A stretch of 64,000 nucleotides of DNA from a virus, in the IMG/VR virus record IMGVR_UViG_3300005663_000033, positions 1-64,000 of that record; one strand, given 5' to 3'. Positions within the stretch are counted from its first letter, which is position 1. Every line of letters begins with the position of its first letter. Made by a program: the position numbers and the translations under genes. The notes under the pieces are model-generated. The model saw only the letters and a list, made by a program, of their open reading frames with translations. It ran no database searches and had not been told where the DNA came from. This document shows positions 3,572 through 38,566 of this stretch, piece by piece.

Positions 3572-6500
3572 TTAGATTCTTCTACCTCTTTTGATAGCTC
3601 TGAAAGTATATCCTTGGCGAGCAGCATTAGCATTTTTCATCCCACCAACACCCGATCCGCGATACATAACCTCATCTTTACCAGGTTTTTCTCTTTTATT
3701 TATATTCCCGGCTACATCCTCGTAATCAATATTTTCATCTGGAGCTATATCTGTATCATAGATATACTTGTGAGACAACAAAAGAGCCGTATAGCGATCT
3801 TTGCGAAGTCTACCCTTTCTACTACGACCCTCAACAGCACCCGGCCGAACTACCTGCGGAGTGTCAAATCTCTCTTTTCCTGTTGGGGTTTCACTCATCT
3901 GAATAGTGCAAAGTTCATTCTTTAATTCTTCAAGATTAAATACATTTTCTTCATAAGTATCAAAAATAACCCCCATAGTCTTTTCGGCTTCGATGGCAGA
4001 ATACATTTTTACACTATCAAAAGCTGGAAATAATAAAGTGCGAGTTTCCAAACTTTTGTGTAAGGCAATATTAGCTTGCTGATTTGATTCATTACTTTGT
4101 GCAATGAGATGTAAAATGTGGCGTCCATCAGTCTCTCCATCGGTGTGTTTCGGATCATCAATATCTATGACTTCATATATGGGAAAATCTCCTTCATCTA
4201 TGTTAAGTAATTTTTTGTTTCGGAGCAATTCAGCTACAGCGTATCCACCGCCTTGACTATCCATTTCTATCCGAACCGGACCAAACAATCGAACAATTTC
4301 ACGAATTCGTGAACAGCAGTAGGCGTAATAATCATCATCGGTTACTAATCCCCGCTTCTTACGTTTTATGAATTCCTTTTTGTTAACAGACCAACAGTAA
4401 ACTACTCGATAATGGTTGGACCAAACTTCAGTTACTGTTATGGCTAAGTTATCTCGCTCGGCAGCGGGATCAACACCCATTACATATTTAGGCCCCTTAA
4501 TTCCCCTCATTGATGGAGTAAATGTTACCGCACCGTCCGGTGTCTCAATTGGTTTATTTGGCCCAACAGTACATCCTTCTATTAAACTACGTGGATAAAA
4601 TCCATCAGAATCCTTTACAAAAATAGCACCATATTCCATAAGATAAATATTACGAGGTAAAGTTGCTTTAGCATGTGCTAATTGTCTTAAATCTAATAGA
4701 CCTTCTGGGAGATGGGTATGTGGAATTCGAATAATAGAATAATCTTTATAATTGAAGCTATCTGGAACAAGATTATCCCCTCCAAAAATCTGAGCAACTT
4801 TCTCCGGATCACCCTTACTGCGAATAATACCTTGCCACATATCATGTTTTTTAGAAAAATGGTTAAATGCATAATAAGCAGTACCAGAATATATAATCTG
4901 GTTGCCATGCATCTTACCATCATCGATAATTAATTTTTTCTTGATATCTGCCGGTAAGTCCATCTTTGCAAGCTGTTTATCAAAAGCAATCTTTTTCGCT
5001 TCTTCAACGGGAGTTTTGGAAGTAGCTGCAAAACCACGAACAACTACATCAAAAACATCTTCTGGAATTGATGCGAATTCATCTGCGATAACAACATTTG
5101 CCCTAAACCCACGAATTTTTGTATTGTGGCTGTGGAATCCATTGGCACAATACTCGTGACCATCTGGAACATGCACATCGAAAGTTACGCATTCATCATC
5201 TTCTATAGATACAATCTCATCATAATAAGTATCTGGATCAACAAGACGACGAATAGAGTTGATACGGGGATCATCGATATGTCCATATACTCTTAGGAAA
5301 TTCTCGACCAATGGTCTACTAGCTGATTTCTTAACTTTTAATCTTCCAACACAAACTGATACACAGTTACCAGTTCCATGTTTGGCTCTATGACTTTCGG
5401 AGATATCAATCATGTCATCCAAAACGTTGGGGATTGAGTCGCCTTGATCCATCCATCGCTTCTTCTTTTCAATTCCTGCAAGAAGTTTATCTTGTTTTCT
5501 TTTCAATCTAAACCCAATTTTAGTAGCAAATGTAGCTACGTCTCTTCCTGTTATAGATAATTCATAACACTCTTCCCATTTTTCATTACGTTTTCTGGAT
5601 TTTACATGAGCAACAATACCATAATGAAGTAGGATATATTGAAGTTGTCTAACAAGTTCTTTACTAGTGTTGTGGAAAGTTATTCCTATTTGAGTACCCC
5701 CGCGTTCTGTCGTAACCTGAACAGTACCATCTGTGTCGAACAGACCGGAGATAAATGCTGATGTTACATTACGTGGAGATTTAAGAATGGTGGATGGAAA
5801 TTGCTTGTCTTTGGTTTTAAGATGGTCTGTATCTATTCCAAATTTTTCAAATAAATTATCCCTTTGTGGCTTGCTGGATAATATCCAGTGCATTGGATCT
5901 GATGGTATTTGTCTTATTGGAACCAAGTTGCGAACAGCAAGAGCCAATTCTTCGTCTTGTGTAGCAAAGCCAATCCTCCCCGGAACCGTATAACTTCCAT
6001 CTCCAGCTAATAAGCCGAGAGCATATGCTTCGTCTTGTGATACTCCGGAATTCCCATCGTGCCACCTAAGAGAACGATCTATGAGGACCCTATCCCCAAG
6101 TTTCATCTCATCCATTCTTACCCATACAATCTTTTGATTTCTAACAATCTTTAGTTTGTGGTTATTAGTGGCGTTGAATTCGAATCCATGATGTGTTTTT
6201 ATTTTTTTAGTTTTTGATTTTCCATTACAATAGGACTCATCACTTAGTCTAAATTTGCCATTACCCCAAATTTCCTTATATCTTTTTACGGTAGTTTTAT
6301 TTGTTTGTCCAGAAACTTGGTCGTCGGATATTCTTCCAAACCCATTTTTGTATGTTACACAAGTTAAAGTGTCACTGCAACCGTCTCCCATTGGCAGCGC
6401 ATAGATAATACTGTCTCCAATAGTAAAATAGCAGAGGTCCACATTCTGTCTTGGGCCAGCTTTCTTCCCTTTACCAACAATACCCCTAAGCATTGGAGAA

Positions 6501-6940
6501 TCACTCCACATAGTATCTATGTAATTGAATACCAACCTGGCTTGACGTAAGCCAGCGCCAACGATCACAACTTTTGTACCAGGATCAAGCAAAGCCCGAA
6601 GAACTGAATATACAGCAAGCATGTAGGATTTACTACCACCACGACAAGCAATAAGCATCGGGAAAGGAGTATTCCACATCATCTGAAGTGTGGCAATTTG
6701 AATTGGAAATAAATCTATACCGAGAATAACCTTGGCCGTCCATCCAATATAATCAATATCTAACATTTTGCTTAAAACAACTTCATTCAATGGATTTTTT
6801 GATTGCTTTAAGTCAGTAAAGATATGTCGATCTATAGTAGGTACACGATCACGGAATGGAAACAGATGTCCATACTTTCCTTGCGCACCATATAATAATT
6901 CATCAAGAGCAATCTTAGTCTTACTGTCCATAGATAACAT
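3572..6940 (-). CDS. Terminase large subunit interrupted by an intein
   Basis: 1122 codons; about 703 residues of host protein remain after removing a 419-residue intein. TerL is the packaging ATPase and headful nuclease. Walker A is ACRGGSKS (98-105) and Walker B is VVIADE (616-621), which the intein separates. The C-terminal nuclease shows GVDPAAE and IEMDSQGGG, consistent with RNase H-fold acidic residues. The intein starts at Cys188 after LPMGDG and ends HN606 before Thr607. No strong Shine-Dalgarno is visible for the ATG at 6940, so an in-frame ATG three codons later is possible. It is followed directly by portal. Confidence 0.95.
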   Translation of the reverse strand: MLSMDSKTKIALDELLYGAQGKYGHLFPFRDRVPTIDRHIFTDLKQSKNPLNEVVLSKMLDIDYIGWTAKVILGIDLFPIQIATLQMMWNTPFPMLIACRGGSKSYMLAVYSVLRALLDPGTKVVIVGAGLRQARLVFNYIDTMWSDSPMLRGIVGKGKKAGPRQNVDLCYFTIGDSIIYALPMGDGCSDTLTCVTYKNGFGRISDDQVSGQTNKTTVKRYKEIWGNGKFRLSDESYCNGKSKTKKIKTHHGFEFNATNNHKLKIVRNQKIVWVRMDEMKLGDRVLIDRSLRWHDGNSGVSQDEAYALGLLAGDGSYTVPGRIGFATQDEELALAVRNLVPIRQIPSDPMHWILSSKPQRDNLFEKFGIDTDHLKTKDKQFPSTILKSPRNVTSAFISGLFDTDGTVQVTTERGGTQIGITFHNTSKELVRQLQYILLHYGIVAHVKSRKRNEKWEECYELSITGRDVATFATKIGFRLKRKQDKLLAGIEKKKRWMDQGDSIPNVLDDMIDISESHRAKHGTGNCVSVCVGRLKVKKSASRPLVENFLRVYGHIDDPRINSIRRLVDPDTYYDEIVSIEDDECVTFDVHVPDGHEYCANGFHSHNTKIRGFRANVVIADEFASIPEDVFDVVVRGFAATSKTPVEEAKKIAFDKQLAKMDLPADIKKKLIIDDGKMHGNQIIYSGTAYYAFNHFSKKHDMWQGIIRSKGDPEKVAQIFGGDNLVPDSFNYKDYSIIRIPHTHLPEGLLDLRQLAHAKATLPRNIYLMEYGAIFVKDSDGFYPRSLIEGCTVGPNKPIETPDGAVTFTPSMRGIKGPKYVMGVDPAAERDNLAITVTEVWSNHYRVVYCWSVNKKEFIKRKKRGLVTDDDYYAYCCSRIREIVRLFGPVRIEMDSQGGGYAVAELLRNKKLLNIDEGDFPIYEVIDIDDPKHTDGETDGRHILHLIAQSNESNQQANIALHKSLETRTLLFPAFDSVKMYSAIEAEKTMGVIFDTYEENVFNLEELKNELCTIQMSETPTGKERFDTPQVVRPGAVEGRSRKGRLRKDRYTALLLSHKYIYDTDIAPDENIDYEDVAGNINKREKPGKDEVMYRGSGVGGMKNANAARQGYTFRAIKRGRRI
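5123..6379 (-). mobile_element. Intein with LAGLIDADG endonuclease, in TerL
   Basis: Residues 188-606 of the TerL reading frame. It begins CSDTLTC (block A, Cys1), has a block B TNNH with His261, two LAGLIDADG-type motifs (LGLLAGDGS about 308-316; ISGLFDTDGT about 397-406) and ends FHSHN with Thr as +1 residue. All residues needed for protein splicing and for a homing endonuclease are present, so it should be active. It lies between the Walker A and Walker B parts of the ATPase. Confidence 0.93.
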
Positions 6941-6975: not shown

Positions 6976-7521
6976 CTAGAAACCAAAACAATCCCCTTCG
7001 GATTTTCCTTTAGGTTCTTGATAAATCCATCGATCTTTTTCAACCCTAACTACTTCTTCACAAATCATCTGAGCTATTTTGCGACCACAAGCTCCTGCTG
7101 GAATAAGGTGTACGCCATATTTAATTGATAAATGCATTAACCATCGCACTAATGACTTACCGGGTACTCCTTTGGTAAATTGAGGTGGAGATAATTCCAT
7201 AATATCTGGTGTAAATGATGACTCAATGATAATATACGGATATTTCATAGTGGACATGCGCTCCATCTCAGCCTCAAATGCCGATCGTTTTTTACTTCCG
7301 TAATTACCCCAAAGCTCCGCAAAATCGGCCTTGCGCTCAATAGCTAAAATATCGGTGTAACCTACAAGGCTATAATCCCCAGTCTGAAGAGTATCTATGA
7401 TCATACCTTCACATCTGGGGGGACGGCGATCTGGCACGTGCGCACTAAAGGTCCACCCGTAACCTTCTTGTTCTCTCGTATCACGAATTACTGTGTATGT
7501 CGGCAAAATTAAACGGGGCAT
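6976..7521 (-). CDS. ERCC4-type (XPF/MUS81-like) nuclease
   Basis: 181 residues. The N-terminus carries VIRDTREQEG, then GDYSL and IERKADFAEL, the order of acidic and ERK motifs of the ERCC4 nuclease core, which cuts branched or flap DNA. A C-terminal (HhH)2 domain is not evident, so it resembles the short stand-alone phage versions. The start overlaps the end of the GMD gene by 13 bases, implying co-translation. A role in resolving replicated DNA before packaging is inferred from its place directly upstream of TerL. Confidence 0.8.
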   Translation of the reverse strand: MPRLILPTYTVIRDTREQEGYGWTFSAHVPDRRPPRCEGMIIDTLQTGDYSLVGYTDILAIERKADFAELWGNYGSKKRSAFEAEMERMSTMKYPYIIIESSFTPDIMELSPPQFTKGVPGKSLVRWLMHLSIKYGVHLIPAGACGRKIAQMICEEVVRVEKDRWIYQEPKGKSEGDCFGF

Positions 7522-10500
7522 TCAACCAACGCCTTGTAATCGCTCTGAATCATTCGATCAATTAGTTCACCGAAACAAATAGTTGACTCCCATCCTAAAA
7601 CTGTTTTTGCCTTACTAGGATCAGCATGAAGCAGATTAACATCTACCGGACGATAAAATGCAGGATCAATAATTACATAGTCACTATAATCTAGTCCAAT
7701 AGAATCAAATGCCAATTGTAGAAATTCTTTTACAGTATGAGTCTCGCCAGACCCCAATACATAGTCATCGGCTTTCGAGTGTTGCATCATCAACCACATA
7801 CCACGAACCATGTCTTCAGCATGTGACCAATCTCTTTTAGCTTCGATATTGCCCAAAGCCAATGGAAGAACATCAACATCTATACGAGGAAATCCACTGT
7901 TAACATCCATCCAATTCTGAAGCATTGCAACATATTTTGTGATCTTACGAGTAACAAAAGCCTCACCCCTACGTTCACTATTATGAACATGAGACATCCC
8001 AACACCACAATTAAACGTTCCAGATTCCGTTTCAATATCCAAAACATAATCTTCTCTTGGCAATTCAATTATTTTTGTTACTTCATTAGTCAATCTACGT
8101 AGATGTAGTCCCTTGCCAGTATCGTTCGGCGAATGAAAATTTACGTGATATGTCAATACATCTCTGTTAAAATATGTGTTAATATTAAAAGATTGTCCAG
8201 TTAATTGATTAATTATATAAATCAGACCAGAAGCTAAAATGGACGAATTAGTTTTAAAACTCTGATATAAATATGTGCATCTTGTAACTGGACTCTTCAG
8301 CCCGTCACATTGATAATATGCATCAATAAAATCTTTCCATACTTTGCTGAGATTCAAAATAATAGATGGAACTCTTTTCTTATTTCCAGAATATATCAAA
8401 TTTCTTAATTTAACTCTTTGTTCCTTATTTATTCCTCCAAGATATAGTTGTGTAGATTTCCCTCCAAAACCAGATTCACAACAATAAGTTCTGTGTGTAC
8501 CATTATATATAGTTTTCCACAAATATGCTACACGATCTCTAATGTTCTTATCATTATTCGTAAATTGAACTTGGCGATCAATTGACACATATCCATCACC
8601 GACAAGATATCCTAATAATTCAGCAAATTCTGGAGTGAGATTTTCTGATATGATTATTGTATCGGATGTCTCTCGTGGCATTGTTTCAACTAGCGACACC
8701 AAAGACCCTTTCTTCAAATGATCAACTCTAATATCTTGCCCATTTTCATCTAATGCTTTATGATGAGCCGTTGCATTAAAAGAACCACCGCGAGAATTAA
8801 TACAAATCATCCGATGATCACTGTTTTGCTCATCTGTTTTTGTGACTGTCGTCCACTTGATTTTTGTCCAACCATCCTGATCCCAGATATAAGTATCACG
8901 TGTCTCAAATGTCTGTGGCTTATTCGTTTCTGTATCAAAATTATGTAAATCACCTGCGGGAATAATATCTATCATACCATGTCGTTTGATGAATATCGGT
9001 GTATTAGTAGAAATGCATTCGTGGTTAAATAGAATACCCGCACAGGCGAAAATACCGTATGCTCGACGATATAAACCAACAAGTTGATGTGCGTATAGCT
9101 TGGCAACAGCGTATGGCGAATTGGGTACCATAGGTGTTGTTTCACATTGAGGAGCGATATCCGTTTCTCCAAAAAGTTCTGATGTTGAATTCCCCGAAAA
9201 GGCCAGTTTTCCCTTTCTGGAAATCAAAAAATTATGATTATCTTCCATAGACAAACACCAAACCTTACCCCTATATGGAACACGGCTTATGTTTTTTGTA
9301 TAAAGTTTATTTGTGGATTTTCCCGCAATGGTAAATGCATAACTTTTACTAGGAGTAACATCATGTCCACATATTTGTGTCACATTCGGCGTAGCATAAT
9401 TGTATGAACAATTTTTTCCTACATTTGCGCATAATCTAATAAAATCAACAGCTAGTTGATCTGATGTTGTTGTAAAATATTGTGTAACACCACCCCCTCT
9501 TCGATAACCGTCACTGTCTATTAATCCCTCAAATACTCGCTGTTGTAAACTTATCGGTATGGAAAAAACAAAATCTGGAATACTTTTGTATTTACATTTT
9601 GTTCCACACAAACGGAATACAGATGCTAAAGCCGAACAGGATAATTCTATTGTAATATCTTTGGCCCTAAAATCTAATCCAAGTTTATTGAGACATTTCA
9701 GTAATTTATTCCTTGCTTTATCTGGTTCTGGAACAGCAAAAAGAATATAGCTACTTTTACCACCAGACTCAATATCGCGATCCATATTTTCTGCAACAAA
9801 TTTACCATCAAAACTTTTGTTTCTAGTTGTCCCCATCTTTCCACTAAGAGTATTTCTAACGAATTTAACTTTTCTTTTACTAGAGGAAGCAAAATAACCA
9901 TCCCCAATATACAAACCAAGAAGATAATAGAAACATTCGGCATTTATTTCGTCAATTAAATTAACAGAACAATTATCTGCAAAATTATTGTTCGCTAGTT
10001 CTGATAACTTAACGGTTGATACATAACTCTCTGAAAAATGATTTGATGTCATAGGAATAGAATATTTACTAGTTCGACTATAGGGAAACAGTGACGCCAC
10101 ATTACTAGCTTGTTCCCTAACAATACATCCATCATCATTCCTCAACAGAACACTATGATTAGGTGTAACTAGCTGGTTGATCCTTCTACCCTTTAATGAA
10201 ACCATCTTCCCATCGTAGTCATATATCAGTTTTTTAACCACCCGTTTTATTTCAACGCACCCAGTCGATTCATTAAGTGTGTAAACACGATCACCAACAC
10301 AAATCTTGTCATATGATTTAATTCCATCAACAGTAACCACCTTTGTCTCCGTGTCATGGCAGGCTTGATAAAATTTGCTATGTGGTGAAGACTGACGAAT
10401 CGATTCTAGCATATTAAGTGGACCCACTGCATTAATTTGACACGTAGTGATAGGCTGATCAAACGAAACACCAACATGACTCATCGCAGCCAAATTATAA

Positions 10501-10733
10501 ATTTCATCGGGTTGAATTCCTGAAATCAATCGGTGCATACATGAAAAATCCGTAATATCCCCTTCAACTAACTTAAAGTTAGGATGATTCTGAAAATGAA
10601 CAATTCTTTCAGTAGTATTAACGGATGACCGACGAATCAATCCATAAACCCTATAGTCTTTCTCCAACAACAATTCTGATAGATAACTACCATCCTGCCC
10701 AGTCGTACCTGTTATTAGTGCAATCTTATCCAT
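7509..10733 (-). CDS. gmd: GDP-mannose 4,6-dehydratase containing two inteins
   Basis: 1074 codons. Removing inteins at 125-515 and 573-918 leaves about 337 residues, close to usual GMD length. Host motifs: GTTGQDGSYL Rossmann NADP site (8-17), YNLAAMSHVGVSFD, STSELFG (516-522), YAVAKLYAH with the catalytic Tyr-x-x-x-Lys (541-545), and SERRGEAFVT. GMD makes GDP-4-keto-6-deoxymannose, precursor of GDP-fucose or rhamnose. Both inteins interrupt highly conserved active-site blocks, so the enzyme should be inactive until spliced. The neighbouring glycosyltransferase suggests a shared sugar-transfer pathway. Confidence 0.95.
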   Translation of the reverse strand: MDKIALITGTTGQDGSYLSELLLEKDYRVYGLIRRSSVNTTERIVHFQNHPNFKLVEGDITDFSCMHRLISGIQPDEIYNLAAMSHVGVSFDQPITTCQINAVGPLNMLESIRQSSPHSKFYQACHDTETKVVTVDGIKSYDKICVGDRVYTLNESTGCVEIKRVVKKLIYDYDGKMVSLKGRRINQLVTPNHSVLLRNDDGCIVREQASNVASLFPYSRTSKYSIPMTSNHFSESYVSTVKLSELANNNFADNCSVNLIDEINAECFYYLLGLYIGDGYFASSSKRKVKFVRNTLSGKMGTTRNKSFDGKFVAENMDRDIESGGKSSYILFAVPEPDKARNKLLKCLNKLGLDFRAKDITIELSCSALASVFRLCGTKCKYKSIPDFVFSIPISLQQRVFEGLIDSDGYRRGGGVTQYFTTTSDQLAVDFIRLCANVGKNCSYNYATPNVTQICGHDVTPSKSYAFTIAGKSTNKLYTKNISRVPYRGKVWCLSMEDNHNFLISRKGKLAFSGNSTSELFGETDIAPQCETTPMVPNSPYAVAKLYAHQLVGLYRRAYGIFACAGILFNHECISTNTPIFIKRHGMIDIIPAGDLHNFDTETNKPQTFETRDTYIWDQDGWTKIKWTTVTKTDEQNSDHRMICINSRGGSFNATAHHKALDENGQDIRVDHLKKGSLVSLVETMPRETSDTIIISENLTPEFAELLGYLVGDGYVSIDRQVQFTNNDKNIRDRVAYLWKTIYNGTHRTYCCESGFGGKSTQLYLGGINKEQRVKLRNLIYSGNKKRVPSIILNLSKVWKDFIDAYYQCDGLKSPVTRCTYLYQSFKTNSSILASGLIYIINQLTGQSFNINTYFNRDVLTYHVNFHSPNDTGKGLHLRRLTNEVTKIIELPREDYVLDIETESGTFNCGVGMSHVHNSERRGEAFVTRKITKYVAMLQNWMDVNSGFPRIDVDVLPLALGNIEAKRDWSHAEDMVRGMWLMMQHSKADDYVLGSGETHTVKEFLQLAFDSIGLDYSDYVIIDPAFYRPVDVNLLHADPSKAKTVLGWESTICFGELIDRMIQSDYKALVECPV
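7980..9017 (-). mobile_element. Intein 2 of GMD (LAGLIDADG type)
   Basis: 346 residues, from Cys573 (CISTNTP) to Asn918 (SHVHN) before Ser919 of SERRGEAF. Block B shows TAHH; endonuclease motifs are LGYLVGDGY (about 707-715) and a more degenerate IDAYYQCDG (about 803-811). The penultimate His is present. It is not obviously a copy of intein 1, so the two insertions look independent. Confidence 0.92.
9189..10361 (-). mobile_element. Intein 1 of GMD (LAGLIDADG type)
   Basis: 391 residues, from Cys125 (CHDTETK) to Asn515 before Ser516 of STSELFG. Block B shows TPNH; endonuclease motifs are LGLYIGDGY (about 272-280) and EGLIDSDGY (about 402-410). The C-terminus reads FSGN, so the usual penultimate His is Gly. 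It is inserted exactly before the Ser-Thr-Ser of the catalytic block. Confidence 0.93.
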
Positions 10734-33137: not shown

Positions 33138-33504
33138 ACCTCTCTTCGATTTTTTTCATCTTTTTTGTCGTCCTATAAAGCGATTGATACAGGCGTTCAG
33201 AAAGGGGCACCCCCTTGTTTAATAAGGCGGGGGACTAGGTGAGAAGGAGTGTATGCGTTTTCTTGTAGGGCATGGATTTTTGGAGCCTAGTATGCCTAAA
33301 CCCCCGGCGGTTATCGGACCTAGCCGAGTTATCGGACCATCCTATATTACCGGCCCACCCCTTAGCCCAGATTTATCGGACCATCTCAGCTAGACATGTT
33401 ATCGGACTATCTTGCATGACATGCAAGGGGAGGTTATCGGACCTATCCTCCTCGCACCCGAACCCTCTTGAGTTATCGGACCAAAAGTTTTTCTTCTCGA
33501 TTTC

Positions 33505-33533
33505 TTGCCTTCGCGCCGATTGTATCCTAGAAT
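33505..33533 (+). promoter_or_regulatory. Sigma70-type promoter at the motif array
   Basis: TTGCCT (33505-33510), 17-base spacer, TAGAAT (33528-33533). Six perfect TTATCGGAC motifs lie 25-200 bases upstream. Would drive the small genes from 33578. Confidence 0.5.
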
Positions 33534-33577
33534 ATATATGACATGACAACGCACACGACAAACAACGGAGAAAAAAG

Positions 33578-33691
33578 ATGAAACTACTTATCGGACTAAC
33601 GCTTACTGGAATCATCGGCTCTTGTGTTATCGGACTACTCATCAACGCCTACTCCTGGATTGAAGCATCGCTTCATTCAGTAGGCCTTTAA
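33578..33691 (+). CDS. Short membrane protein inside the motif array
   Basis: 37 residues from ATG 33578 (CGGAG upstream). One hydrophobic helix; two array motifs encode its LIG and VIG residues. Confidence 0.6.
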   Translation: MKLLIGLTLTGIIGSCVIGLLINAYSWIEASLHSVGL

Positions 33692-33702
33692 GGGAGAGAA
33701 TC

Positions 33703-33792
33703 ATGGCGACTATTATTATCGGATGTGCGGCAATGGTGGTTATCGGAGCGGTATGGTTGTGGTCTGTATTATCAGACCTTGAGGGGCTATAA
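33703..33792 (+). CDS. Short membrane peptide inside the motif array
   Basis: 29 residues, AAGGGAGAG upstream of the ATG. One hydrophobic helix; array motifs are read as IIG, VIG and LSD. Confidence 0.55.
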   Translation: MATIIIGCAAMVVIGAVWLWSVLSDLEGL

Positions 33793-33794
33793 CA

Positions 33795-34052
33795 ATGGAC
33801 AAGACACTGGTGAAATATCGGACACTAGGCAGCAAATTTAACAGTTACGCTGTAGTACCTACCCTGTTCTTATCGGGCCTACTCGATTGGCTGAAGTTAT
33901 CGGAATGTGCGACGATCATCTCTACGACCGATAACTATCAGCGGATTCTCCGACAATCTGAGTTATCAGACCTAGCCGCTCCTGAATCATGGCCGAGTTA
34001 TGGGCAGTGTAAAGGTTACATTCTCGCTGTAGACATGCTGGAGTGCCGATAA
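33795..34052 (+). CDS. Small protein inside the motif array
   Basis: 85 residues; array motifs appear as KYRT, FLSG, KLSE and ELSDL, two different frames within one gene. Stop overlaps the next start (TAATG). No family recognised. Confidence 0.6.
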   Translation: MDKTLVKYRTLGSKFNSYAVVPTLFLSGLLDWLKLSECATIISTTDNYQRILRQSELSDLAAPESWPSYGQCKGYILAVDMLECR

Positions 34053-34276
34053 TGTTTGGACAAGCTAAACTTGAAATACCCACAAGCGGTAATATCGGAC
34101 CTTCCTGTACCACCGGATTATCAGACCAACTAGCTATGACTATCGGACGTACAGCAGCACGCACGTTATCGGAACAAGATGGGTATGTTGTAGTGACACT
34201 TGAATCAGGATCGGTTCGTGTTATCGGCTATAATACGATCCACGACAAACTCGTTATCGGACGTTTAACCATTTAA
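34052..34276 (+). CDS. Small protein inside the motif array
   Basis: 74 residues from ATG 34052 in a TAATG overlap. Beta-rich (YVVVTLESGSVRVIGY). Array motifs encode NIGP, LSDQ, TIGR, LSEQ and VIG. Confidence 0.6.
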   Translation: MFGQAKLEIPTSGNIGPSCTTGLSDQLAMTIGRTAARTLSEQDGYVVVTLESGSVRVIGYNTIHDKLVIGRLTI

Positions 34277-34287
34277 GGAGCGATAAG

Positions 34288-34644
34288 ATGAGAAACAGAG
34301 TTATCGGACAAACAGGCACGGTGGTGTTATCGGACGATTCGATCTTCCGTAGTAGATCACACAAACGGACCTTGCGCTACCAGTACCTAAAAGTACAGCA
34401 CGGCTGGATTGCGTGGATTTGCGGACCTTTCCATTCTCGGACCTACGGGGTTTGTAGTTTTGGGACCAGAAGAAGGTCGGCTAAAGCAGCACTTGCAACT
34501 CGCCTCGCAAACGATTATCGGTACTTAGGCAATCTAATGTTCTCGGACGTTGATGGGTCCGATACTGTAGGCAAGACCGATGCGCAGTTATTGGACGAAA
34601 CGACGATCAATCATCCGATAATGAGCGAATTGCTAGGCGTGTAG
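34288..34644 (+). CDS. Basic protein inside the motif array
   Basis: 118 residues behind AAGGAG. Opens MRNRVIGQTG; the middle has WIAWICGPFHSRTYGVCSFGTRRR, a beta and Arg-rich stretch. The array continues through it in mutated form. Confidence 0.6.
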   Translation: MRNRVIGQTGTVVLSDDSIFRSRSHKRTLRYQYLKVQHGWIAWICGPFHSRTYGVCSFGTRRRSAKAALATRLANDYRYLGNLMFSDVDGSDTVGKTDAQLLDETTINHPIMSELLGV

Positions 34645-34646
34645 TT

Positions 34647-34718
34647 ATGGGGCGCGAAACCGTTTTCTGGATTAAAACCATACTGTACGCAGGTCTTATA
34701 ACTGTGGCAATGTGGTAA
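34647..34718 (+). CDS. Possible 23-residue membrane peptide
   Basis: ATG two bases after the preceding stop, one hydrophobic helix (VFWIKTILYAGLITVAMW). Weak support. Downstream to 35176 no gene is seen; that stretch holds further motif variants, the ATGGCG/CGCCAT hairpin near 34865-34882 and the palindromes at 35012 and 35121. Confidence 0.35.
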   Translation: MGRETVFWIKTILYAGLITVAMW

Positions 34719-35011
34719 AGATTATGGGACCGGCGACATGCGCAATCGTTGGTCCTATAACTTTGCGCCGACCTTTGTGTTATGGGACGTTGAGCCGTGA
34801 GCGATTATCGGGCCTAAGTATAAACTAGTTTACCCTGTGTGTATTGTCCCATAATACATCGGTTTATGGCGCAAAAACGCCATTTCTTATCGGAAATCAC
34901 TTATAAGACGACTTTTTTATCGGAAAGGGTAGATAACTTCGCGGTTTTTAGCTTTTTCATGGTTATTGGACCCCATATTAGGACTAGCATAACCTGTATT
35001 ACAGGACTTTC

Positions 35012-35137
35012 CGATAATATCGTGGATTTTGAACAAATAACAGGGTTTTTATAGGCAAACGACCGATATGTGATCTCAAAAAGCGGACTTTGTTACAATT
35101 GCAGATTATCGGTCTAAGTGCGATAATATCGTGGATT
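35012..35137. promoter_or_regulatory. Paired CGATAATATCG palindromes, putative operators
   Basis: A 17-bp direct repeat, CGATAATATCGTGGATT, occurs at 35012-35028 and 35121-35137. Each contains the perfect palindrome CGATA-A-TATCG, two inverted copies of the TATCG core of the array motif. The second copy ends 39 bases before the -35 box at 35177, a good place for a repressor or activator. Confidence 0.65.
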
Positions 35138-35176
35138 AGGGTCTCTAGGCGCGGAAAAGTTTTTTCGGATTATACC

Positions 35177-35205
35177 TTGACGGCGTATATAACTAAGCCT
35201 ATAGT
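35177..35205 (+). promoter_or_regulatory. Strong sigma70-type promoter
   Basis: TTGACG (35177-35182), 17-base spacer, TATAGT (35200-35205). Near-consensus and directly ahead of the structured RNA region; start of transcription expected near 35212. Confidence 0.75.
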
Positions 35206-35211
35206 ATTATG

Positions 35212-37089
35212 TAAGAAGAAAAAAGAGAAGCAAAAAACGGACCTTTAGGGGTTTACCTAATGAAGTCGTAAACGAAAAACGGACGAATGATTGTGGTTAG
35301 GTATCTCCGGCATTGACACAATAGGCCGTCGTGTCAAGTGCTCTACGTGGCGTATGTACCGCACGGGGAATTGTAGGGAGCGCTACCGATAGTTCCCGGG
35401 GGTATCTAACCGTTGTCATTCCGATGACCCGCAAGGGTCTGATAATAAGTGACCGGCGCAACGTCGGTCCGAATAAGGGTTTCAGTACGTTACTACTTGT
35501 CCGTCCCATAACGGGACGGAGTAGTCTCGGGCATGGGACGGGCGATAACCTTGCAAGGGGAATCGTTATGTCTAACAGTGCCACTGGAACGATTGTCGAG
35601 TTTGAGTCTGCGACTTTCAAGACCAACGCCGCGATTTATCGGGCGAACAAACGCATGGTCGACGCCGCTAGTCGATACGACAGTGTCGATGACGCAAAGG
35701 CCGGTCTTGATGCAGCGTGGAAAGTTCTTGAAGCTCAGGTTGAAAATGGGTCGGGTTACACTCCCGATTCCAAGCTGGGCTTTGGGTCCGACAATGCCAC
35801 CGTGATTGCCGAGAGTCTGCTCGGTCGTCGCAACAGTGTCGGCGCAACTCGTAAGTCGTTCAACGATCTGGGCAGGTAGAGTGTCTGACGCACCGCGCCT
35901 CTAGCGAAGATAGTCTTGTATAGGCTATGTTTATAGGCCGTTAGGGGCGCGTAACGATGGACATTCTGACTTAAAGTCAGGATTGAATCGCTTGGTAGGG
36001 TAGCACCCTATCGTTATAGGTCCACTATCTAGGATCAGCGGTTCCCATAACCAACCATAGCGGGAGGTCCGATACGCATCGGGTATTCCCGGAAGAGGTT
36101 GGGTAGTAGTCCGATAGTCGCCGTAGTAGGGTCTATAAGCGCGCAGGACGTGCGCTAATGGGTCTCAACCGGAGTCAACGGTTATCGGTCGAACTCCAGT
36201 CTTGAGAAGCGACAAAACGTAGAGTCCAGAATGTGGGCTCAGTCTACGCCCGTAGTACGTGGACGGGATAAGTGACGGATCGTCTACACGATTCCTTGTA
36301 TGTCTGGCAAAGGGTCTTGGTACAGCGCCGAGGCAGCTAGACAGAAAAGGGTAGGTCGTGTTAATCATTTTACGGTCCTTCATGGTAATACGTCTATCGT
36401 TTTGGGGTAGGCTTTCTTTTTGTCGTGGGATAGGCATTTCCAAGGGCAAGTCCTGTAAACTCCGTCACAACAATTTCTTTCGCAAGGGTCTCTCGGGGTA
36501 TTGCTGATAGTTCGAGGGGTCTGAGGTTAGAATGTGGCGCGGTTCACGATCTTGTCGGTTAAGTCTTAGATTGGCACGCAACGGGTATTGTGTGTCCAGT
36601 CTCTGTTACTATTTTGCTGAACGACACGACACGACGGACGGGTTGAATAAACTGGTTCATTGCACTGGCGCAACAGTCTCGGCTCGATTAGTCGTTAAAA
36701 TAAGGATACTAGAAACTGTCCTGGGAAAACGGATAGCCAGATTTCATCTGCCAGGGCATTATCCGCAAAAAGCAGTGGTAGGACCTACGGGTCGGGAAGT
36801 CGTGACGATGGGCTGCATAGTCGTCAGTCACGATGGACAAGTTAGGTGGGTTGGCTTGTCAACTTTTTTGATGGCATATCATTATGGGCTGTGGAGTTAG
36901 CAAAGGGAATAATATGCTGGAAGTTAATCCCTGTAGGGATGCATCTTGAGTTGTCTAGCGCAAGACAATGATTGAGCTTATGGCATATCCCGGCGGGTGA
37001 AAGACGAATCTCTCTTTGTAGGTATCGCTAAAACTACAGGGGTACGATTCGTGGAAAGTCCTCCGATCTAATAGACGGGGGAGGTATTT
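35212..37089 (+). ncRNA. Candidate large structured RNA (with embedded small gene)
   Basis: About 1.9 kb downstream of a strong promoter, G-rich, with little convincing coding sequence apart from 35568-35879. Perfect or near-perfect helices are very dense: TTGACAC/GTGTCAA (35313/35331), GACCC-GCAA-GGGTC with a GNRA loop (35426-35439), TCCGTCCC/GGGACGGA (35500/35513), CTGACT/AGTCAG (35966/35975), GGTAGGGT/ACCCTATC (35994/36005), AGCGCGC/GTGCGCT (36138/36150), CGGATA/TATCCG enclosing CAGAT/ATCTG (36730-36765), CGTGACGA/TCGTCA-gt-CACG (36801-36832), TTGTCT/AGACAA (36951-36968), ACGAATC/GATTCGT (37004/37046). Size, phage location and a neighbouring tRNA recall GOLLD and ROOL RNAs; identity not established. 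The 3' end is uncertain. Confidence 0.6.
35568..35879 (+). CDS. 103-residue protein embedded in the structured RNA region
   Basis: ATG 35568 behind AAGGGG. Helical and Ala-rich (AAIYRANKRMVDAASRYDSV, AGLDAAWKVLEAQVENG), small, soluble, neutral. Codon choice is more GC-rich than elsewhere in the window. In-frame open sequence extends upstream into the 35.3-35.5 kb hairpins, but no ribosome site supports a longer form. No family recognised; an RNA-binding or RNA-chaperone role is only suggested by position. Confidence 0.7.
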   Translation: MSNSATGTIVEFESATFKTNAAIYRANKRMVDAASRYDSVDDAKAGLDAAWKVLEAQVENGSGYTPDSKLGFGSDNATVIAESLLGRRNSVGATRKSFNDLGR

Positions 37090-37260
37090 ATGAAGCCACA
37101 CTTGGCGCTACAGCCTGTAATGATGTGTCATCATTCGTGGCGCGTTGTCGAGAGATGGCGCGTCGCATTTGTTTATGGGCGAAGGCAATCCTCGTTGTCG
37201 TGTCCCGGAGGCGGAGCGCGGAGGTTAGAGGTAAACCAGCCGTATAACGCCACGCCATAG
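37090..37260 (+). CDS. Possible 56-residue basic protein
   Basis: ATG 37090 behind the strongest Shine-Dalgarno in this stretch (GGGGGAGG at 37077-37084). Arg-rich (WRVVERWRVAFVYGRRQ). The ribosome site can pair with CCTCC at 37060-37064, so translation may be shut by a hairpin. It may also be part of the structured RNA and not translated. Confidence 0.35.
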   Translation: MKPHLALQPVMMCHHSWRVVERWRVAFVYGRRQSSLSCPGGGARRLEVNQPYNATP

Positions 37261-37281
37261 ATGGGATGGGTTCCACAAGGA

Positions 37282-37360
37282 AAGCCAGTAGCTCAATTGG
37301 TAGAGTAACTCCAGCCCATGGGCTCGGGGTAGGTTGTGGGTTCGAGTCCCACCTGGCTTT
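37282..37360 (+). tRNA. tRNA-like gene with 13-nt anticodon loop
   Basis: Acceptor AAGCCAG/CTGGCTT (7 bp), T8 A9, D stem GCTC/GAGT, T arm GTGGG-TTCGAGT-CCCAC and 5-nt variable loop are all canonical. The anticodon stem ACTCC/GGGGT (37308-37312/37326-37330) encloses 13 nt instead of 7, and that loop is itself a palindrome AGCCCATGGGCT, with no T33-anticodon arrangement. No normal anticodon can be assigned. Either a degenerate tRNA or a tRNA mimic. Confidence 0.7.
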
Positions 37361-37452
37361 TTAGGGAGGGCAATAGTGGGAGTTGGATTTTGCAGCCCAA
37401 CAGCGCCGGATTCGGTGGGGTTTCCGGTACACTTTTTCTTTAGGAGATTGCG

Positions 37453-38095: not shown

Positions 38096-38566
38096 GTTAT
38101 CGCCCCACATCTACTAATCACCCTCTCCAAGAAACTATCCGGGATTTTTTATGAACTTTCCGGGGTTTTCTGATTAGTCCAGGTACTTCAGGGGTCATTA
38201 GAACGTTTGCATATTTATGCAAGTGTATTACTATGCCTTTGAACCAGGTGCCTGCCAAAAACGCAGCTAACCCTTCGCCCACGCTCTTTCTTACTATTAA
38301 GGTGTTTGCTCTATAGGGGGAGTAGTTGGTAAAACGGTACAAAAACACGCCTTACGTGGTCAAAAACACGGTTGCGAAGCACTGCGAGTCGGTCGTCGGG
38401 TCTAAGCCAGTTTGGCCTGTATCTGTTTCTATATACGATTTTGTAGGCTAAATGGGACATATAGCGAGTGGTGGGACGGAATGGTATACAGGGCGCTAGG
38501 TACGAAATTTGTATCTGATTTCTTGAATCTTGTAGGCTAACGTCCTGTTATCAAAAGGGGTACAAA
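38096..38566 (+). other. Gene-free stretch
   Basis: About 470 bases without a convincing gene. Seen here: CCGGGATTTTTT at 38141-38152, which could belong to a weak terminator, two TTGTAGGCTAA elements (about 38436 and 38530), and the start-site repeat GCTAACGTCCTGTTATCA (38536-38553) that recurs at 39344. Confidence 0.5.

Follow-up and report, generated by a model that had tools for sequence, protein, structure and literature searches.

RNAIII and SgrS are dual-function bacterial RNAs, in which one transcript carries a small gene together with a structured RNA part that is itself functional. Such RNAs have been treated as a class (PMC8672173). GOLLD, an RNA of phages and prophages, exceeds 800 nucleotides (nt), forms a 14-mer cage with intermolecular kissing loops and sometimes has tRNAs near or within it; its layout is that of two structured domains with an unstructured linker between them (PMC12286853). 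ROOL, also found in phages and prophages, measures about 580–660 nt, forms an octamer cage, contains multiple conserved pseudoknots and often lies near tRNAs. In OLE and HEARO (omega RNA), a large structured RNA is associated with a protein or, for HEARO, with an open reading frame, whose product is an HNH-type nuclease. Here, we describe a structured phage RNA with an embedded 103-codon gene, located in a stretch of 64,000 nt (the window; positions 1 to 64,000 of the 113,443-base uncultivated virus record IMGVR_UViG_3300005663_000033). The window encodes portal-, terminase- and head-protease-like proteins of a tailed phage, and the locus is placed at a turn of gene direction and GC skew.

A sequence-only reading of the window had likened this RNA to GOLLD and ROOL and taken it for a possibly new or very divergent member; the comparison with Rfam does not support membership of these families, or of OLE or HEARO. 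At the gathering score the whole window yielded three tRNAs only, and at E ≤ 10 nothing credible was found across 35150–37380. Even at E ≤ 10, none of the four models matched the window region or the homologue L007, and there was no gathering-threshold match in the window or in the homologues L002, L003, L006, L007 and L008. The RNA matches no catalogued family, and membership of GOLLD or ROOL is not supported. It resembles GOLLD as a large ornate phage RNA with separate 5' and 3' domains and a linker, which is resemblance and not membership, whereas it shares no sequence or covariance-model similarity with GOLLD, is longer, and has a conserved gene as its linker. Compared with ROOL, likewise a large ornate phage RNA, it is about twice as long, carries the embedded gene, and has one pseudoknot in its leader and none found in its 3' domain. 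It shares with OLE and HEARO a large structured RNA accompanied by a protein, but this protein is neither a nuclease nor OLE-associated in the libraries searched. With RNAIII and SgrS it would share the single transcript combining a small gene and a structured RNA part, although the RNA part is here several times larger, phage-borne and unrelated in sequence.

A conserved RNA unit in seven phages

Homologues were sought by scanning IMG/VR with the 103-amino-acid protein and conserved RNA motifs as queries. Six more distinct phages were found (L002, L003, L006, L007, L013 and L015), giving seven with the window, all from one phage clade. L014 was a chance match to one pattern and was excluded, and L008, a near-identical copy of L007, was not counted apart. 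The L007 and L008 contigs come from samples 3300028610 and 3300009788 and are 99.95% identical across 19.7 kb, indicating that the L007 phage was present in more than one sample. The portal proteins of four homologues are 69–77% identical to that of the window and the L015 portal is 78% identical, while L013, a 40-kb contig, has no portal match. No portal relative of the clade was found among 50,697 deposited phage records. Moreover, deposited phages gave no DNA or protein match, and no relative was found in plasmids or GTDB genomes.

As established by comparing these sequences, the unit occurs once per genome (six genomes searched) and the order of its parts is identical in all seven phages: promoter, structured leader, gene of about 105 codons, ornate domain of 0.95 kb and, in most members, a terminator-like hairpin (Table 1). 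These parts would form one transcription unit of ~1.65 kb in the window and of 1.5–1.6 kb in most relatives.

Table 1. Features of the RNA locus, with positions in the window
Feature	Position	Strand	Basis or remark
sigma70-type promoter, TTGACG-17-TATAGT	35177-35205	+	same element at the same place in homologues
5' extension specific to the window phage, one long hairpin (~35294-35412)	35212-35425	+	z -3.3; gap in alignment
Structured leader (covarying hairpins 1 and 2, H-type pseudoknot)	35426-35541	+	comparative
Leader hairpin 1, GACCC-GCAA-GGGTC	35426-35439	+	two-sided changes preserve the stem
Leader hairpin 2, 7 bp, GCAA-containing loop, then invariant GTCCGAATA	35451-35469	+	covariation
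H-type pseudoknot, 5' of the ribosome binding site	35493-35541	+	covariation over seven phages
Ribosome binding site AAGGGG and start codon	35545-35570	+	single-sequence folds, homologue reading
103-codon gene	35568-35879	+	in all seven phages
3' structured RNA domain, ~0.95 kb	about 35893-36830	+	consensus structure
3'-terminal hairpin, invariant GGTGGGTT in loop, then AACTTTTTT; probable intrinsic terminator	hairpin 36836-36860, element to 36868	+	stem covariation
tRNA-Gly (CCC), outside the conserved RNA	37281-37361	+	neighbour

The near-consensus promoter noted earlier is recognisable in the homologues (TTGAC...TATAAC...TATAGTATnATGTA), and its position predicts a transcript start at ~35212. 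The structured region had been drawn from 35212 to 37089; of this, leader, gene and 3' domain are conserved among the homologues, and both flanks fall away. The 5' extension folds well and has no counterpart in the homologues, while 36869–37089 cannot be aligned among them and is of ordinary stability (z −1.3). The 3' end differs between members: the terminal hairpin, with a stem of 8 bp including 5 covarying pairs, is kept in 5 of the 7 phages, and a U-tract follows in 3 of those 5.

The gene, already seen in the window as an interruption of the RNA, divides the structured domains and itself lacks a conserved RNA fold. The encoded proteins of the first six phages are 39–69% identical. Divergence by codon position is 0.36/0.33/0.59, being highest at the third, and the non-synonymous rate (dN, 0.25–0.71) is below the synonymous rate (dS, 0.68–3.05) in every pair. 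The gene is thus, by this comparison, under purifying selection, and it is probably translated. A selected gene lying inside a conserved structured RNA is one of the features expected of a dual-function RNA, and it is what the alignments reveal here. Pfam, PHROG, NCBIfam, PADLOC and PDB contain no relative of the encoded protein.

The 3' domain behaves differently. Its divergence by codon phase is flat (0.40/0.37/0.38), and no single reading frame is open throughout the homologues. Where frame translations match locally, they do so through similarity of the DNA, and the comparison indicates that the domain is non-coding, in line with the first description of the region as mostly so.

Covariation in the 3' domain and the leader

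The consensus structure of the 3' domain has 46 helices with 295 pairs in all; the terminal hairpin accounts for the last two helices. The structure includes two long-range pairings (36415–36421 with 36767–36773, and 36422–36427 with 36625–36630). The nested stems reported near 36730–36765 are real and covary, extending over 36704–36764.

Covariation in the homologues proved strong under three kinds of control, namely shuffles, slid partners and held-out members. In the 3' consensus, 88.0% of 1,454 cells are canonical, compared to 35–43% with slid partners, and 115 of the 295 pairs show two-sided change, compared to 22–35 with slid partners and 52 ± 5 in shuffled alignments; neither value was attained in any of 500 shuffles. 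When RNAalifold was run against column-shuffled alignments, leader windows had z from −7 to −10, most 3'-domain windows had z from −3 to −8, and windows within the gene, which serves as an internal negative control, had z ~0. It should be noted that the windows at ~36300–36620, where the alignment is poor, are weaker, and the structure is less certain there.

As the sequences scored are also those from which the 3' structure came, more weight is due to the held-out tests. In the 3' domain (five sequences), the structure obtained from any three members was 76–83% canonical in the rest; in the leader, the corresponding figure was 80–96%, and slid partners gave about 36–42% (about 39% in the 3' domain). 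Moreover, L015, which was found once the structure had been fixed, has 232 of 273 pairs canonical (85%, compared to 38–45% with slid partners) and 27 two-sided changes (compared to 1–10). The plus strand of 35880–36862 folds 7.6 standard deviations better than dinucleotide shuffles, the minus strand 2.1. Overall, the fold is strongly supported by these comparisons.

The leader is conserved in the same way, with 94.6% of cells canonical and two-sided change in 9 of 25 pairs. In hairpin 1, which had been described as a GNRA hairpin, the stem is retained by compensatory change, and the GNRA loop in part of the members only. Hairpin 2 is 97.6% canonical, with two-sided change in 4 of its 7 pairs. 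In the pseudoknot, stem 1 joins CUAC (35493–35496) to GUAG (35521–35524), and stem 2 joins CCGUCCCAU (35501–35509) to AUGGGACGG (35533–35541). Stem 2 is canonical in 62 of 63 cells over the seven phages, with swaps of C-G to G-C, C-G to U-A and A-U to G-C; it was counted on raw sequences, MAFFT having misaligned its 3' strand in L007 and L015. For L015, the leader scores 72% under this automatic misalignment, and when read directly it contains both hairpins and the pseudoknot.

CCGUCC has an alternative partner, the invariant GGACGG at 35514–35519 between the two pseudoknot strands, and a switch is therefore possible. In most members, single-sequence folds together with a reading of the homologues suggest a small hairpin that may join the Shine-Dalgarno sequence to the start codon.

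A small pseudoknot immediately upstream of a short gene is also found in the glutamine-II (downstream-peptide) riboswitch, RF01704. This family matched 35495–35545 with 14.3 bits (E 0.1 for 101 nt), but this is far under the gathering threshold of 33 bits and the matching CAUGG varies among the homologues, so that the candidate was rejected.

Searches for pairing between the leader and the 3' domain gave no helices beyond chance. The two therefore appear to fold separately, which favours independent roles. Within the 3' domain, no covarying extra pseudoknots or kissing loops were found among the unpaired bases of the five sequences.

Genomic neighbourhood

Proximity to tRNAs, the other feature first noticed at this locus, holds for some members only. 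The tRNA-Gly of the window lies 420 nt downstream and a tRNA-Asp directly adjoins the RNA in L007, while no tRNA is near the RNA in L003, L006 and L013. In L002, 11341–11533 resembles a tRNA into which ~110 bases have been inserted (acceptor GCAGGGG/CATCCCTGC, T-arm CCCGGTTCGAGTCCGGG). Neither ARAGORN nor Rfam recognises a tRNA in this segment, and the reading as a tRNA intron has no Rfam support.

A strand-biased array of G-TTATCGGAC repeats occupies 33311–35112 of the window, 4800–9735 of L007, 4300–7720 of L003 and 5000–9760 of L009. With the pattern TTAT[CAG]GG, there are 27 plus-strand copies in the window and 78 in L007. The array terminates at the RNA promoter, where the cumulative GC skew of the window has its minimum. 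The repeats could be origin repeats or regulator sites.

Downstream of the RNA, a GC-rich hairpin (CGTGGCGCG...CGCGTCGC) is present at 37135–37170 of the window, ~2150–2200 of L013 and ~9829–9865 of L003. In L003, an HNH-endonuclease-like gene (9420–9818) lies directly 3' of the RNA, in place of sequence that the others have. Further on, 38096–38199 and 38340–38548 of the window contain no obvious gene and are conserved (78% with L009, 73% with L003); they are possibly further RNA or regulatory elements. On the minus strand of the window, terminase-like and sugar-nucleotide dehydratase-like genes (3572–6940 and 7509–10733) have apparent intein-like insertions; those of the dehydratase-like gene, two in number, come from sequence reading, and the terminase-like gene was checked.

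Possible roles of the transcript

We favour, at somewhat better than even confidence, a bifunctional phage transcript that is both coding and an ornate RNA, that probably serves as an RNA or ribonucleoprotein scaffold and that controls the small protein through its leader. The RNA would be made early in infection from the host-type promoter, with its unstructured middle translated as an ordinary gene. The pseudoknot of the leader, for which an alternative hairpin exists near the Shine-Dalgarno sequence, would most likely tune translation of this gene, perhaps via feedback by the gene's own product. The 3' domain, folding apart from the leader, would most likely function as RNA itself, presumably in trans, as a scaffold or as the core of a ribonucleoprotein to which the encoded protein may belong. 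A further reading, which we regard as rather unlikely, is that of a new giant ornate RNA class forming a homo-oligomeric or protein-bound particle that is also the messenger RNA (mRNA) of its own partner protein, the gene being the linker between two folded domains.

Several points weigh against the bifunctional transcript. A single RNA spanning leader, gene and 3' domain, and its length, are suggested by the promoter and the terminator-like hairpin, the latter being absent from some members, and L015 and L002 diverge beyond the position equivalent to 36764. The AlphaFold model of the encoded protein has a confidence score (pLDDT) of 50 and no recognisable fold, which makes fold searches with it meaningless. 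Finally, given that all members belong to a single clade (portals 69–78% identical), conservation alone cannot tell trans action from a role in cis.

Such a cis role is the strongest competitor, although we consider it improbable by itself. The 3' domain would then be a very large 3' untranslated region whose task is to stabilise or localise the mRNA, or to regulate readthrough into the downstream operon of tRNA and small genes. The domain indeed always stands behind the same gene in the unit, the terminator-like hairpin comes next in 5 of 7 phages, and the tRNA and small genes lie directly downstream. However, known bacterial cis regulators are far smaller than a domain that spans ~950 nt and contains roughly 290 conserved pairs, and the 3' domain was not found to pair with the leader or the ribosome binding site.

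It is more doubtful that the RNA belongs to GOLLD or ROOL as a divergent member or forms a similar homo-oligomeric cage, in which the gene would replace the variable linker inside the cage. The size and ornateness of this phage RNA, the tRNAs that adjoin it at times and the GOLLD-like succession of structured domain, unstructured linker and structured domain all fit this idea. Against it stand the failure of either Rfam model to match even at E ≤ 10, a length about twice that of either RNA, a linker that is a conserved gene instead of variable sequence, and the fact that neither kissing loops nor further covarying pairs were found among the unpaired bases of five sequences.

A role in phage DNA replication, in which the RNA might, for instance, prime or control the adjacent repeat-rich region, as suggested for large replication-associated RNAs, has a low probability in our view. 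The strongly strand-biased G-TTATCGGAC array stops at the RNA promoter in relatives, at the skew minimum, and several complementary CCGATAA stretches occur inside the RNA, but gene orientation switches where the skew turns, regulator sites are another possible reading of the repeats, and nothing indicates that the RNA stays on the DNA. That there is no functional RNA, and that the hairpins arise by chance in G-rich sequence, is practically negligible: single-sequence folding scores can mislead (the gene itself has z −3.2), but covariation with several controls and the out-of-sample homologue L015 refute it.

Very few large structured RNAs are known in bacteria and phages, GOLLD and ROOL among them. 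The RNA described here adds a new family that is unrelated to either by sequence and by model, and that is larger. Moreover, the candidate protein partner encoded within the same predicted transcript would offer a direct handle on its function.
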